Source of the DNA: Deltaproteobacteria bacterium
GTDB taxonomy: Bacteria; Desulfobacterota; Syntrophia; Syntrophales; UBA6807
Assembly (NCBI GenBank): GCA_016935565.1
Contig: JAFGQS010000024.1
Span: forward strand, 1 to 32,338
Direction of reading: 5' to 3'
Length of the DNA: 32,338 bases
The notes below the pieces were generated by a model. That model was not told the DNA's origin and searched no databases. It worked only from the letters and a program-made list of their open reading frames with translations. Below are positions 3,506 to 16,206 of this stretch, in pieces. How positions within the stretch are numbered: the first letter of the stretch is position 1; each line of letters starts with the position of its first letter. The translations under genes were made by a program, and so were the position numbers.

Positions 3506-3581
3506 TGGTGGGCCCACCTGGGTTCGAACCAGGGACCTACCGGTTATGAGCCGGTGGCTCTTCCAACTGAGCTATGGGCCC
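3506..3581 (-). tRNA. tRNA with CAU anticodon (elongator Met or Ile2)
   Basis: A complete 76-nt cloverleaf on the minus strand. The acceptor is GGGCCCA/TGGGCCC with discriminator A and an encoded CCA (3508-3506). The anticodon stem is CCGG(C)/(A)CCGG with loop CTCATAA, giving anticodon CAU at 3548-3546. The T-arm is CCTGG-TTCGAAC-CCAGG. CAU is shared by initiator Met, elongator Met and Ile2 (read as lysidine). The paired first position excludes a typical initiator. Elongator Met is my first guess, but CTCATAA is also found in Ile2, and TilS determinants cannot be judged by eye. It lies downstream of rpoD with its own promoter. Confidence 0.95.
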
Positions 3582-7365: not shown

Positions 7366-7395
7366 ATTATACATAATAATTATTTTGGATCTCAA
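7366..7395 (-). promoter_or_regulatory. promoter upstream of dnaG-rpoD
   Basis: On the minus strand TTGAGA (7395-7390) and a perfect TATAAT (7371-7366) are 18 bases apart, about 100 bases before the dnaG TTG. A 6-bp hairpin (7411-7426) overlaps the yqeY stop codon just upstream. Confidence 0.6.
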
Positions 7396-11723: not shown

Positions 11724-12097
11724 TTTTTATATACTTCCTCCGGATTAAATACTTTTTCCCCGATTACCTCCGTCTTCCCATGAGATACCTTGTTATGGAA
11801 ACATGATGCGTACCCCGTATGGCACGCTGCTCCACCTATTTGTTCGACCATTAACAAAATAGCATCATTGTCGCAGTCTATTCTGATTTCCTTGACCAAC
11901 TGTACATTACCTGATGTCTCACCTTTCACCCACAGCTCATTCCTCGTTCGGCTCCAGAAGGTTGCTTTTTTTGTTTCTATCGTTTGTAACCACGACTGCC
12001 GGTTCATATAGGCAAGCATCAGAATCTCTTTGGTTTCATAATCTTGAACAATAGCCGGTAAAAGGCCGCCCCCCTTGTCAAAATCGAGTTCTACCAT
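11720..12097 (-). CDS. hisI: phosphoribosyl-AMP cyclohydrolase (histidine step 3)
   Basis: 125 residues, the single-domain cyclohydrolase without the HisE pyrophosphatase part, which must be encoded elsewhere. The metal site IDCDNDA gives Asp74, Asp76 and Asp78, and the zinc cysteines are Cys75, Cys92 and Cys99 (CHTGYASCF). [12 protein letters not shown] is the substrate loop. It opens the adenine ring of PR-AMP. It is the first gene of the hisI-hisG-hisB run. GAGGAG lies about 11 bases before the ATG, a little far. A 39-codon open frame in the leader ends across the hisI start but contains no histidine codons. Confidence 0.96.
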
Positions 12098-12258
12098 GAA
12101 TCAAATCTCTCCTCACTGACGATGACACATGTCTGATTTTCCATAAAGCAGAAAGATAACATGCTTATTTGAATAGCATAACCATATTGCCGTTCTTTTA
12201 CTGTAGCCATTTAACCTAATTTAAGATTTTTGTTTTCGCAAGTATTATTTTCTCAATT

Positions 12259-12302
12259 TTGAACTTGCCTCGATACACTTTTTATGTTAGCAAGAATTCT
12301 TG
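12259..12302 (+). promoter_or_regulatory. promoter and start-point palindrome for the small membrane-protein gene
   Basis: TTGAAC (12259-12264) and TATGTT (12283-12288) lie 18 bases apart. A perfect 12-bp palindrome CAAGAATTCTTG (12291-12302) covers the predicted start point, where a dimeric repressor could bind. The leader then has a 7-bp hairpin with one G-U pair (12322-12328 with 12339-12345) and AAGGAGG (12381-12387) before the ATG. The rest of this 300-base divergent gap carries the unresolved hisI promoter. Confidence 0.5.
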
Positions 12303-12397
12303 AAGAAAAATTAGAAATTTTTACTGCGTGGTAATCGCCGTAGTATTATTCTGATCGCTGAAATCTAAATTTTTTTTAAAAAGGAGGTTATTACATT

Positions 12398-12718
12398 ATG
12401 CAGGTGTTGATTGGCGGTGTTGTGGCGGCAGTATTGGGGCTCGTCGGCCTTATAGCCTGGTGGAAAGAATTCCTACTCATACTGATGGGTGGTATCCCAG
12501 TTGCCTTGCTTCTTGGAGGCGCCCTTGCCATTTATGTCGGTTATGATGAATTAAAAGACCAGATGCGTGAGAAAAAAGATAAAGCAAAAGAAGCCAAAGA
12601 AAAGAGCGATGAACTTGCCAAAGCAAAGGAAGAACTAGAGAAAGCAAAGGCCGAAGCAGAAAAATATAAGGCCGAAGCAAAGCAGGCATCAAAATCGAAG
12701 AAAAAAGAAGATTCATAA
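12398..12718 (+). CDS. small membrane protein with Lys/Glu/Ala coiled-coil tail, function unknown
   Basis: 106 residues. Two hydrophobic segments (about 4-20 and 25-47) separated by WWKEF form a probable helical hairpin in the inner membrane. The remaining half (about 50-106) is almost entirely Lys, Glu and Ala in heptad-like order (KAKEELEKAKAEAEKY) and should form a cytoplasmic or periplasmic coiled coil with a basic end. I recognise no family. It has a strong ribosome-binding site (AGGAGG), its own promoter and a strong terminator, so it is a single-gene unit divergent from the his genes. A membrane scaffold or stress-type envelope protein is possible, but nothing in the sequence decides it. 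Confidence 0.82.
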   Translation: MQVLIGGVVAAVLGLVGLIAWWKEFLLILMGGIPVALLLGGALAIYVGYDELKDQMREKKDKAKEAKEKSDELAKAKEELEKAKAEAEKYKAEAKQASKSKKKEDS

Positions 12719-12735
12719 TAAATTATATATTCAAT

Positions 12736-12766
12736 AAAAATAGGGGCTCTCAAGCCCCTATTTTTT
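12736..12766 (+). terminator. rho-independent terminator
   Basis: The perfect 8-bp stem TAGGGGCT/AGCCCCTA (12741-12748 with 12753-12760), loop CTCA, has an A-run before it and six Ts after it. It ends the small membrane-protein transcript. Confidence 0.9.
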
Positions 12767-12984
12767 ATGTTACGGCATTATATAATTCATCGCTTTACTG
12801 CGTAATCTATTTGTCATAAATCATGAACATTATCACCCCTCTCTTACTATGTATTGTGCAGTCATACTACATCAGTGGGAACCCTTGATCTCAGTCGACC
12901 TTACCAAGAACGGTACATCCAGAACACGAACAGGCAACCACGCTACTCACACATACCCTTGTGTAAATTACCTTAAAATAATTC

Positions 12985-13013
12985 TTGACAGAATTATGTT
13001 GGTTACATATAGT
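12985..13013 (+). promoter_or_regulatory. near-consensus sigma70 promoter in a gene-free region
   Basis: Perfect TTGACA (12985-12990), exactly 17 bases of spacer, and TATAGT (13008-13013, five of six). The predicted start is near 13020. The closest downstream gene begins only at 13299 and has a closer promoter of its own. Confidence 0.65.
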
Positions 13014-13019
13014 GTTTTG

Positions 13020-13170
13020 CAGTTTTTTCAAACACATGTAGTATAGAATGAGCACTATGATAAACAAAGAATACACAATCCAGTCTATTAAACTCACCTA
13101 CAACAACTACAAGTATTAATGCCTGCTGCCGTCTGTTATGATGGTCAAGCAGGCCTTTCACAACCTTTTT
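13020..13170 (+). ncRNA. candidate small RNA or long leader
   Basis: The stretch 12767-13298 holds no credible gene. From the promoter at 12985 a transcript would start near 13020, run through an A/C-rich, probably unpaired stretch (about 13090-13115), and meet a strong hairpin. In that hairpin GCCTGCT (13121-13127) pairs with AGCAGGC (13148-13154), and an inner CCGTC/GATGG pairs around a TGTTAT loop. A loose T-rich stretch (CTTTTT, 13165-13170) follows. The hairpin would make either a terminator, giving an RNA of about 150 nt, or an attenuator in a dctP leader. There is no sequence family I recognise. Confidence 0.3.
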
Positions 13171-13177
13171 ATCAGTC

Positions 13178-13207
13178 TTGAGTTTTCCAATGTATTAGTA
13201 ATATTAT
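13178..13207 (+). promoter_or_regulatory. probable promoter of the TRAP operon
   Basis: TTGAGT (13178-13183) and TATTAT (13202-13207) are 18 bases apart, about 90 bases before the dctP ATG. Confidence 0.5.
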
Positions 13208-13298
13208 ACGCGGATGAGTCATTTTCACAAGCTGATATCTGTCTTTTTGACGGGGGATAGGTTTCAGTTACAGTTAAATTCAATCACCGGAGGGAAAA

Positions 13299-14336
13299 AT
13301 GAAAAAAAGATTTTTTTTGATAATAATAGCGGCAGTGTTCGTCGTATCATCATTTACGCCTGTCAGTATCACCGCTGTACAGGCAAAACCGATCGATCTT
13401 TCCTACAGCATATTCTTTCCGGCCACTCATGGTCAGTGCAAGGCCGGAATCGACTGGGCTCGTGAGGTAGAAAAACGCACCAATGGCAGGGTAAAAATTA
13501 CGGTATTTCCCGGAGGGACCCTGACAAAGGCCAACCAGTGCTATGACGGAGTGGTCAACGGAATATCCGATCTTGGAATGTCCTGTTTTGCTTACACCAG
13601 GGGACGTTTTCCTGTTATGGAAGCCATCGATCTTCCCCACGGATATCCCAACGGCCAGGTTGCGACTCACGTGGCGAATGGATTCTACGCAGTAATGAAG
13701 CCGGCAGAACTCAATGACGTCAAGGTCCTGTACATACACGCTCATGGACCCGGCCTGCTTCACACGAAAACGCCGGTACATAACCTGAAAGAGCTGAAAG
13801 GAATGAAGATCAGATCGACCGGCTTGAGTGCAAAGGTAACAGAGGCGCTCGGAGGCGTTCCCGTCGCCATGCCTCAAGGAGCCACGTATGAAGCTCTTCA
13901 AAAGGGTGTCGTTGAAGGTACGTTCACTCCCATTGAAACACTCAAGGGATGGAAACAGGCCGAAGTGATCAAGTACACGACAAACTGCACCGGTGTCGGT
14001 TACACCACGGCCATGTTTGTCGTGATGAACCTTAAAAAATGGAACTCGCTCCCGAAAGATATTCAAAAAATTATTGAAGATACAAGCACGGAATGGGTTG
14101 ATGTCCACGGAGCAGTCTGGGATAAAGGTGACATCGAAGGTCGCGAATACACCTTAAGTCTGGGTAACAAAATTATCCAATTATCCGACGATGAGAACAA
14201 CCGATGGAAAGCGGCGGTTCAGCCGATTATCAATGGCTTCATACAGGCAGCGGACGAGAAAAATCTCCCCGGGGGCAAAGCCGTGGATGAAGTCAAGAAA
14301 TTGATCGAGAAATACAGTCAAAAGTACATACAATAA
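13299..14336 (+). CDS. dctP: TRAP transporter solute-binding protein (DctP family)
   Basis: 345 residues with a clear Sec signal peptide (KKR, hydrophobic core, cleavage likely after VQA near residue 29). The mature part is a periplasmic DctP fold: an N-terminal strand [11 protein letters not shown], then [21 protein letters not shown], the hinge strand [10 protein letters not shown] with the conserved carboxylate-binding Arg, and [15 protein letters not shown]. It delivers a ligand to the DctQM membrane pair. The usual ligands are C4-dicarboxylates or other organic acids; the substrate cannot be told from sequence alone. GGAGGG precedes the ATG. It is the first gene of a complete dctP-dctQ-dctM set. 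Confidence 0.95.
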
Positions 14337-14353
14337 AAAAATAAATTTCGATC

Positions 14354-14387
14354 AACCCCCTTTTCGGATATACTCCGGAAGGGGGTT
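14354..14387 (+). promoter_or_regulatory. intercistronic hairpin between dctP and dctQ
   Basis: A 9-bp stem AACCCCCTT/AAGGGGGTT (14354-14362 with 14379-14387), with an inner CGGA/TCCG stem, lies 18 bases after the dctP stop and has no T-run. In TRAP and ABC operons such hairpins hold 3' ends and raise binding-protein mRNA over the membrane genes; that role here is inferred. Confidence 0.6.
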
Positions 14388-14422
14388 AATCATTTGAGCA
14401 ATTCTTCGATATACCGTGAACT

Positions 14423-14908
14423 ATGTTTCGCATAGAGAGAATTACCTATTTTTTGACTGATAGATTTAACTGGATTGCCGCCGGAGCTGTTGTTGCAATG
14501 ATGTGTCTCACGTGCGCCGACGTGATTCTTCGCATATTCCGCCACCCCATCCCCGGCACCTATGAAATTGTAGGCCTTCTCGGATCTGTCGTTATCGCAT
14601 TTTCGATCGGATACACGTCGGTGGAAAAAGGACATATTGCCGTTGAGTTTCTTGTCCAGAAATTCCCCGTCAGAGTTCAAACATTTATCGATACATTCAA
14701 TGATCTGATCAGTACATGTCTTTTCGCCCTGATAACCTGGCAAAGTATCGTATACGCGTCCGACTTGAAACAAAGCGGAGAGGTGTCACTGACCATACAG
14801 ATGCCCATTTATCCTTTCGTTTATGGAATATCTCTTGGTTGTGGGCTCCTGTGCCTTATTCTATTGCTTAATTTTGTGAAATCATTAAAGAGGATTGGTG
14901 AAAAGTGA
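14423..14908 (+). CDS. dctQ: TRAP transporter small permease subunit
   Basis: 161 residues with four predicted membrane helices (about 17-36, 50-68, 88-107, 128-150) and the family motif TYEIVGLLGSVVIAF followed by GHIAVEF. DctQ partners the large subunit DctM. A stop codon directly precedes the ATG in frame, so this is the first possible ATG; no good ribosome-binding site is visible, consistent with lower expression than dctP. The end overlaps the dctM start by four bases. Confidence 0.93.
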   Translation: MFRIERITYFLTDRFNWIAAGAVVAMMCLTCADVILRIFRHPIPGTYEIVGLLGSVVIAFSIGYTSVEKGHIAVEFLVQKFPVRVQTFIDTFNDLISTCLFALITWQSIVYASDLKQSGEVSLTIQMPIYPFVYGISLGCGLLCLILLLNFVKSLKRIGEK

Positions 14909-16206
14909 GTCCAACCGCTGTCGGTCTTATCGGTATTGTTGCCCTTTTTCTCTTTATTTTTTCCCGAATTCCCGTCGGTTATGTTATGGCTATCATCGGT
15001 TTTCTGGGCTTCGGTTACTTAGTTTCATTTGACGCCTCCTTAAACTTGATTGCAAAAGATATTTTTTCTGTTTTTGGCTCCTATAACCTGACCGTTATCC
15101 CCCTCTTTGTTCTCATGGGACAGCTTGCCTATCATTCAGGTATCAGCACCAGACTCTTTGACGCCGCCTACAAATGGATCGGTCACGTGCCGGGCGGACT
15201 TGCCATTGCGACCATCGGTGCATGTGCCGGCTTTGCCGCCATCTGCGGATCTACAAATGCGACAGCAGCCACGATGGCAGCTACAACGCTGCCGGAAATG
15301 AAACGATACAACTATAAACCGGAACTGGCCACGGGGGTTGTTGCCGCCGGGGGAAGTCTCGGCATTCTGATTCCACCCAGTGTCATCTTTATCGTCTATG
15401 GAATTATGACCGAACAATCGATCGGCAAACTCTTTATCGCAGGTCTTATTCCCGGACTCCTTCTCACAATCTTGTTTATCCTGAGTATCATGATCTGGAC
15501 AAGACTGAAACCTGATCTCGGCCCGCCCGGCCCGAAAACTACCTTCAGAGAAAAAATAACCTCTCTTCTAGGTCTCACAGAAACCATCCTTCTCTTTCTC
15601 TTAGTCATGGGAGGACTCTTTGCGGGTTTTTTCACCCCGACGGAAGCGGGGGCGGTGGGAGCTCTTGGCACGTTAATACTTGCCGTGATGAGACGCACTT
15701 TATCCTGGAAAGGTTTTGTTACGTCTCTCTTTGAAACGACACGGAGCTCCTGCATGATTCTCGTCATTGTTGCGGGTGCTACTATTTTCGGACATTTCCT
15801 CGCCATATCGAGGATTCCTTTCGATACGGCAAACTGGATATCGTCACTCCCATTACCTCGCGATGCCATCATGCTCATGATAATTCTGCTCTATCTGATG
15901 GGAGGTTGTTTCATTGACTCACTGGCCCTGATTATGCTGACAGTACCGATCTTTTACCCCGTCGTTATTCATCTTGGCTACGACCCGCTCTGGTTCGGAG
16001 TTATCATTGTTCTCATAACGCAAATCGGTGTCATAACACCACCGGTGGGAATCAATGTGTACGTCGTGAGCGGCGTGGCCAGAGACGTGCCTCTGCAGGT
16101 CATCTTCAGGGGTGTGATTCCTCTTCTTATCGCGCTAATCATCGGGACTTTCCTTTTGATTCCCTTTCCGCAAATCGCACTTTTTCTTCCCGGTTTGATG
16201 AGATAA
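14905..16206 (+). CDS. dctM: TRAP transporter large permease subunit
   Basis: 433 residues, about a dozen hydrophobic helices, normal DctM length. Signatures are IPVGYVMAIIGFLGF at the start, SGGxxAGFAA-like GACAGFAAICGSTNATAAT, GGSLGILIPPSVIFIVYG, FTPTEAGAVGALG, and TPPVGINVYVVSG near the end. It forms the ion-coupled (Na+ or H+) transport channel with DctQ. The start is GTG, inside the GTGA overlap with the dctQ stop, so translation is coupled. It is last in the operon; only a weak possible terminator follows. Confidence 0.96.
   Translation: MSPTAVGLIGIVALFLFIFSRIPVGYVMAIIGFLGFGYLVSFDASLNLIAKDIFSVFGSYNLTVIPLFVLMGQLAYHSGISTRLFDAAYKWIGHVPGGLAIATIGACAGFAAICGSTNATAATMAATTLPEMKRYNYKPELATGVVAAGGSLGILIPPSVIFIVYGIMTEQSIGKLFIAGLIPGLLLTILFILSIMIWTRLKPDLGPPGPKTTFREKITSLLGLTETILLFLLVMGGLFAGFFTPTEAGAVGALGTLILAVMRRTLSWKGFVTSLFETTRSSCMILVIVAGATIFGHFLAISRIPFDTANWISSLPLPRDAIMLMIILLYLMGGCFIDSLALIMLTVPIFYPVVIHLGYDPLWFGVIIVLITQIGVITPPVGINVYVVSGVARDVPLQVIFRGVIPLLIALIIGTFLLIPFPQIALFLPGLMR

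Follow-up and report, generated by a model that had tools for sequence, protein, structure and literature searches.

The DNA analysed here, a stretch of 32,338 nucleotides referred to as the window, carries on its forward strand the genes of a TRAP transporter, i.e., dctP (13299-14336), dctQ (14423-14908), and dctM (14905-16206). By sequence and fold comparison, the solute-binding protein (SBP) encoded by dctP is nearest to aromatic-acid-binding TRAP SBPs. The name of the small membrane subunit DctQ rests on its position and on tblastn with relatives, that of the large membrane subunit DctM on position and sequence. A Shine-Dalgarno sequence of dctP, GGAGGG, was read at 13289-13294, and the stretch 12985-13298 is very probably a regulatory 5' leader upstream of dctPQM. 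On the forward strand, this leader comprises a sigma-70-type promoter, TTGACA-17-TATAGT (12985-13013), with a predicted transcription start at about 13020; a 20-codon leader ORF (uORF; 13057-13119), whose final codons TAC AAG TAT TAA (13108-13119) give a conserved Tyr-x-Tyr (YxY) end and a stop, the proposed arrest site; and a two-tier hairpin (13121-13154) with outer arms GCCTGC/GCAGGC and a covarying upper stem. The hairpin is flanked by two C-rich, G-poor segments, one formed by the last 40 nt of the uORF (13077-13116) and the other lying behind the hairpin (13155-13194), which are possible first and second halves of a rut site.

In searches against Rfam, only RNase P and tRNA scored above the gathering score in the window, and nothing relevant was obtained across 12940-13320 at E values up to 10. 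The RNase P RNA is located at 1730-2124 and the tRNA gene at 3509-3581, both on the minus strand. By the tests made in this study, the element is a leader-peptide regulatory element that matches no Rfam family.

Promoter and leader peptide

The promoter of the leader scored 11/12 in a consensus promoter scan. The initial annotation had called it the best in the window, a rank for which it ties with a minus-strand site at 7395 that also reached 11/12. In 74 of 89 unique relatives, an exact TTGACA lay 104-137 nt ahead of the uORF stop, and in one more it lay at 200 nt; three would be expected from shuffles. The retention of TTGACA at this place indicates that the leader promoter is real and conserved. 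A separate promoter of dctP after the hairpin, which had also been proposed, was not supported: the candidates in the window were weak (9/12), and in the gap between hairpin and dctP of 78 relatives the best promoter match was at chance level (8.0 versus 7.9 in shuffles).

The region behind the promoter had been described as non-coding, with no gene for 280 bases, a description that is contradicted by the conserved 20-codon ORF running from the ATG at 13057 to the TAA at 13119. It encodes the peptide MINKEYTIQSIKLTYNNYKY, which ends in NNYKY and has four Tyr among its 20 residues, and its stop codon lies one base ahead of the first base of the hairpin. For parsing of the uORF, 162 records were pooled into 92 unique copies of the element. 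All 92 had the YxY C-terminus, a figure that is partly built in because the search pattern by which the copies were parsed required YxY; the two covariance models described below, which did not strictly demand it, recovered one copy without YxY (L186). Among the 92 copies, the first Tyr codon was TAT in 48 and TAC in 44, the second was TAT in 90 and TAC in 2, and the residue between them was Met in 70, Lys in 9, Thr in 5, and another in the remaining 8. The next codon was a stop in 86 copies (TGA in 58 and TAA in 28) and a sense codon in six. In 86 of 91 unique copies the frame was open back to an ATG lying 14-30 codons upstream, as against 3 of 91 in each of two control frames, and the median and the modal length of the uORF were both 20 codons.

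Close pairs of copies differed 158, 262, and 271 times at codon positions 1, 2, and 3, respectively. Purifying selection over the whole uORF peptide was not seen, positions 2 and 3 differing about equally often. Constraint is thus visible only on the start, the frame, the length, and the three final codons, a pattern to be expected of a leader peptide and not of a small protein. Upstream of YxY, Tyr was only slightly enriched (1.21-fold). The Shine-Dalgarno sequence of the uORF was weak, with a mean of -2.4 kcal/mol across copies versus -8.9 kcal/mol for the transporter genes, and strong Shine-Dalgarno sequences were found in the binding-protein genes of the family (74 of 79 at -4 kcal/mol or better). 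The start, frame, and stop of the uORF are conserved and it has stayed in cis with functionally related genes behind it, as is expected of a regulatory uORF. The conserved element and its translated uORF are well supported, and judging from the sequence comparisons 12985-13298 is very probably a cis-acting leader with a functional uORF.

In six of the 92 copies (L097, L098, L099, L100, L058, and L096) and in L188, a sense codon replaces the stop after YxY, and the frame, as read by eye from the sequences, continues to a stop inside the hairpin. A second ORF, starting from an ATG that overlaps the stop (TGATG or TAATG), was considered and set aside: the stop is followed by T in only 76 of 92 copies, and the inner length of the hairpin varies over 10-30 nt without a three-base periodicity.

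Hairpin and flanking segments

The two-tier hairpin was found at exactly the position given for it in the initial annotation, with a folding energy of -21.1 kcal/mol and a z-score of -4.9; none of 200 shuffles was as stable. It is the sole hairpin of the form GCCTGC...GCAGGC in the window, and none was obtained in 100 shuffles. The outer arms were nearly invariant among the unique copies (GCCTGC in 90 and GCAGGC in 86 of 92). Covariance in relatives was also present: the seventh pair was T-A in 65 copies, A-T in 6, C-G in 5, T-G in 4, and mismatched in 12, and the inner stem varied in sequence with its pairing kept (mean z-score of -3.0 versus a shuffled inner part; rank of 5% or better in 84 of 92 copies).

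The hairpin was not followed by a U-tract. The mean was 2.4 T in 8 nt, at least five T in 8 nt occurred in only 2 of 92 copies, and no terminator-like site was found in 12000-14500. An intrinsic terminator, or an attenuator built on one, was rejected for these reasons. Similarly, an antiterminator or any other alternative pairing of either arm with leader or downstream RNA was rejected, since no excess complementarity was seen in 76 leaders (z-scores of -0.40 to 0.33).

The segment before the hairpin had been noted as A/C-rich and likely unpaired; it proved to be the uORF itself, with a C-over-G bias that is conserved and that may be the sign of a Rho site and not of an antisense seed. Of 92 unique copies, 91 had more C than G over the 40 nt preceding the stop, compared with 17 of 89 in a control window upstream. 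Behind the hairpin, C exceeded G over 40 nt in 88 of 90 copies, compared with 20 of 90 in a control window placed still farther downstream. When C over G was measured over 78 nt, 25% of 1314 control segments reached the median of the leaders and only 8 of 90 leaders exceeded the 95th percentile of the controls, probably because the non-template strands of the neighbouring genes are also C-rich. As the measure was not exceptional, the 78-nt bubble was rejected as stand-alone proof of Rho action. A rho gene is present in the genome.

Distribution and downstream transporters

When 41 relatives were searched by BLASTN, every one of the five other family members and some further genomes matched significantly, but only over about 13095-13163. 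A first covariance model, R1, made from eight aligned copies, detected the element in 86 genomes out of 149 searched in the order and in 87 out of 155 searched in the class. A second model, R2, built from 51 sequences, covering the last codons and the hairpin, and applied at a threshold of E 0.05 or better, placed it in 94 of 155 Syntrophales genomes and 39 of 53 genera, usually once per genome, and the conservation in relatives to which the initial annotation had looked was thereby found. Eight of 395 genomes spread over the phylum matched, all in Syntrophales; only 13 candidates were scored per genome in this search, and therefore weak matches outside Syntrophales can be missed. A pattern scan of GTDB species genomes with no taxon limit gave 74 stretches, from organisms labelled Syntrophaceae, Smithella, Syntrophales, and Deltaproteobacteria, and including three records labelled Desulfobacteraceae or Desulfobacterales with dctP downstream (L117, L137, and L160). 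Two of the 74, from Arenicella (L116) and Rufibacter (L132), were set aside by judgement as chance matches. Ten genomes without the element were also searched for DctP: eight had no such protein at E 1e-80 or better, and in the other two, which have a DctP paralogue of 47-55% identity, no such leader was seen by eye. In the accessible parts of the open-access literature on leader peptides, TRAP transporters, structured RNA, and Syntrophus, no prior report of the element was found.

At 98 places, the element was followed by a TRAP dctP in 75, by an ABC binding protein gene in 19, and by dctQM in one; two of the others lay at contig ends and one preceded unrelated genes (L186). The count of 75 is made up of 73 of 90 loci, including L095 (a partial, displaced match) and L069 (cut by a contig end), together with L188 and L189, and the 19 ABC loci are the sum of 15 and 4 from two rounds. 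The ABC binding protein is of the LivK type, is unrelated to DctP, and is encoded at the same position after the leader. One of the two binding-protein types was also found 62-335 nt downstream of 70 of the 74 pattern matches, and the transporter genes followed the uORF and hairpin after a median of 118 nt. In one genus, the leader of a dctP locus (L089) and that of an ABC locus (L085) were identical at 243 of 255 aligned positions (95%) from TTGACA to the start codon, and further upstream at 287 of 300, and the coding sequences then diverge. Such near-identity before different transporters suggests that the transporter was exchanged while the leader stayed, which argues for one shared cue.

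A few copies lie in other settings. L187 (1549-1609 of the reverse strand in genome G008) is the second leader copy of its genome and stands upstream of dctQM without dctP. L186 (1542-1600 in G015) is a diverged copy with a duplicated short uORF, located before heterodisulfide-reductase-like genes, and may represent decay, reuse, or chance. In L095 (G067), the partial or displaced dctP match behind the leader possibly belongs to a decaying operon.

The relatives of both binding proteins point to aromatic substrates. The structure model of DctP (pLDDT 88.6) had fold neighbours at Z 39.5-32.3 for ranks 1-15, the next one being at 30.8. Most of these 15 were TRAP SBPs for aromatic acids, and TarP was among them with coumarate, caffeate, cinnamate, ferulate, or 4-hydroxyphenylacetate as ligands, although the titles of ranks 1 and 3 (4n6d and 4nap) show no ligand. 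By phmmer, the DctP sequence was likewise nearest to aromatic-acid SBPs. In sequence, the nearest proteins to the ABC binding protein were 3sg0 and 4dqd, of which 4dqd is a complex with 3-phenylpyruvate; the model of the ABC protein (pLDDT 71.3) had a fold near CouP (Rp1789) and relatives, with the amino acid-binding LivJ tying with aromatic SBPs by Z. Four of the five ABC operons listed end in a gene for a PaaK-like ligase, and the fifth is on a contig that ends within livF. This ligase matched a solved phenylacetate-CoA ligase at E 2.9e-127 and, with 536 of 646 bits, was below the NCBIfam cut-off. It was reported for Rhodopseudomonas palustris that the binding proteins of an ABC/TRAP pair, CouPSTU and TarPQM, bind the same aromatic acids (PMC3610893). 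Both transporter types here probably take up aromatic acids as well. Because relatives of both binding proteins bind aromatic acids, the cue of the leader could be an aromatic compound or amino acid, a suggestion for which we consider the balance to be even.

Proposed mechanism and alternatives

Based on the results of this study, the element could be a leader-peptide attenuator that works like TnaC, with arrest at Tyr-x-Tyr-stop; we give this reading as a whole about an even chance of being right. The conserved promoter would give a transcript with the uORF of about 20 codons, the hairpin, and the transporter genes. Without the cue, the ribosome would complete the uORF and depart, and the hairpin would close; the C-rich, G-poor RNA on both sides of the closed hairpin would then allow Rho to bind and to end transcription ahead of dctP. 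When the cue is present, the nascent chain ending in YxY would sense the aromatic compound or amino acid, and the ribosome would stay at or near the stop. The stalled ribosome would cover the 5' arm, so that the hairpin could not form, Rho would be kept off, and the transporter genes would be transcribed.

Given the footprint of a ribosome, one that stands at the stop codon must also cover the 5' arm of the hairpin, which begins only one base later. The hairpin and a terminating ribosome should therefore be mutually exclusive, and whatever delays the departure of the ribosome should keep the hairpin open. That the position of the ribosome at YxY-stop controls the hairpin is considered likely. 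The absence of a U-tract and the C-rich, G-poor composition of the two flanks make Rho the most probable effector, a proposal that we put at somewhat less than an even chance. TnaC and CruR provide precedents for competition between ribosome and Rho (PMC8429421, PMC9426467). As a tentative and rather doubtful extension, the leader may be a sensor for plant- or amino-acid-derived aromatic acids, in which the 20-residue chain ending in YxY stalls the ribosome at the stop beside the hairpin, the two C-rich half-sites are brought together by the hairpin as a single loading site for Rho, and the whole acts as a portable module behind which TRAP and ABC transporters were exchanged in an order made up mostly of uncultured syntrophs. 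The copies with a sense codon after YxY (six of 92 and L188) are an outcome that strict arrest at the stop does not predict; they fit a stall at YxY itself as well as one at the stop, and are the main unexplained point.

The same features could be read in other ways. In classical attenuation, the two Tyr codons would sense charged tRNA-Tyr; when Tyr is short, the ribosome would wait, the hairpin would stay open, and a transporter for tyrosine or a precursor of it would be expressed. The invariance of the Tyr codons, the further Tyr or other aromatic residues often found at positions -5 and -6, and the four Tyr of the window peptide agree with this possibility. However, Tyr is barely enriched further upstream, the intrinsic terminator and the alternative partner of an arm that are usual for such attenuators were both missing, and codon counting leaves the Met between the Tyr codons in 70 of 92 copies unexplained, so that we regard it as unlikely. 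Quite unlikely, too, is a hairpin that serves in RNA processing, stabilisation, or protein binding, with the uORF only setting ribosome traffic and the nascent chain sensing no small molecule. The outer arms, conserved beyond the needs of pairing, and the freely varying body of the peptide would suit such a function, whereas YxY and the exact spacing between stop and hairpin would be left unexplained.

The initial annotation had offered two possibilities, of which the dctP leader with an attenuator is retained in that the element lies directly upstream of a dctP or an ABC gene across the order. The other one, a trans-acting small RNA of about 150 nt from the promoter at 12985, could draw on the strong promoter, on a hairpin at about 100-134 nt, and on the C-rich unpaired segment, but the conserved uORF with its fixed C-terminus, the scarcity of T-rich tails (2 of 92), the fixed place in cis before transporter genes of two unrelated types, and the lack of a conserved single-stranded seed outside the end of the uORF make it very unlikely, and it was rejected as the main reading. 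It is just as improbable that the 20-residue product is a functional small protein, e.g., a modulator of the transporter. Its fixed length and C-terminus and its place beside the transporters would be compatible with such a role; on the other hand, the sequence varies freely except for YxY, the uORF was kept when the transporter type was swapped (L089/L085), its Shine-Dalgarno sequence is weak, and it always adjoins the same hairpin.

The preferred TnaC-like reading can be compared with several known systems. Few ligand-sensing arrest peptides are known, and most are from a handful of model bacteria. An aromatic acid, if it is the true cue, would to our knowledge be a new ligand class for nascent-chain sensing. 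In the classical trp, his, and phe leaders, the leader peptide has codons of one amino acid near its end. Unlike these attenuators, the element described here has no U-tract terminator, no antiterminator pairing, and only two invariant Tyr codons. In the tR1 terminator of lambda (rutA-boxB-rutB), a hairpin stands between two C-rich Rho-binding segments, which resembles the bipartite layout of C-rich segment, hairpin, and C-rich segment found here; no translated ORF ends at the hairpin in tR1, and the likeness is one of resemblance only.

In E. coli, the leader of tnaCAB encodes TnaC, which has Pro24 before its stop; there is no intrinsic terminator, and Rho gains access near the stop (PMC8429421). 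The element resembles TnaC in a leader ORF of about 20-24 codons, in arrest at the stop (proposed here), in the genes for aromatic uptake or use downstream, and in the absence of an intrinsic terminator with Rho access near the stop, Rho being our inference for the element. It differs from TnaC in that all 92 copies end in YxY without Pro24 before the stop, and also in the strong hairpin 1 nt after the stop and in the families of the transporters; ligand and arrest in the element are putative. On sequence grounds, the element is neither a TnaC homologue nor an intrinsic attenuator. CruR (Bp2923) of Bordetella is a DUF2946 protein of more than 140 residues that senses copper by CXXC and in which the ligand relieves arrest (PMC9426467). 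It shares with our element a uORF with a short conserved C-terminal motif, a C-over-G bubble, and a proposed competition between ribosome and Rho, but the peptide here has 20 residues and there is a hairpin at the stop. CouPSTU, an ABC transporter, and TarPQM, a TRAP transporter, overlap in their aromatic-acid ligands, as is predicted here, and few solved proteins are nearer to the two binding proteins than CouP and TarP; this likeness concerns the transporters, and the abstract of the report makes no mention of leader-peptide control (PMC3610893).

What is new here, judging from the literature searched, is the sequence family and the architecture, in which the stop codon abuts the hairpin, and the cue is probably new as well. 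The element is retained in 39 of the 53 Syntrophales genera searched. The natural exchange of transporters behind a near-identical leader points to one shared cue, and an aromatic acid, if this is the cue, would provide a handle on the control of aromatic uptake in uncultured syntrophs. Moreover, leaders that pass as 'non-coding' in metagenome-derived genomes hide conserved uORFs that are missed by annotation.

In most loci, the upstream neighbour of the leader is a gene for a 106-aa membrane/coiled-coil protein (12398-12718 on the forward strand of the window) beside hisI/hisG, with an N-terminus weakly similar to MamI, below the cut-off. Just after this gene, at 12736-12765, a perfect 13-bp inverted repeat, AAAAATAGGGGCT/AGCCCCTATTTTT, forms a terminator-like site that separates it from the leader.
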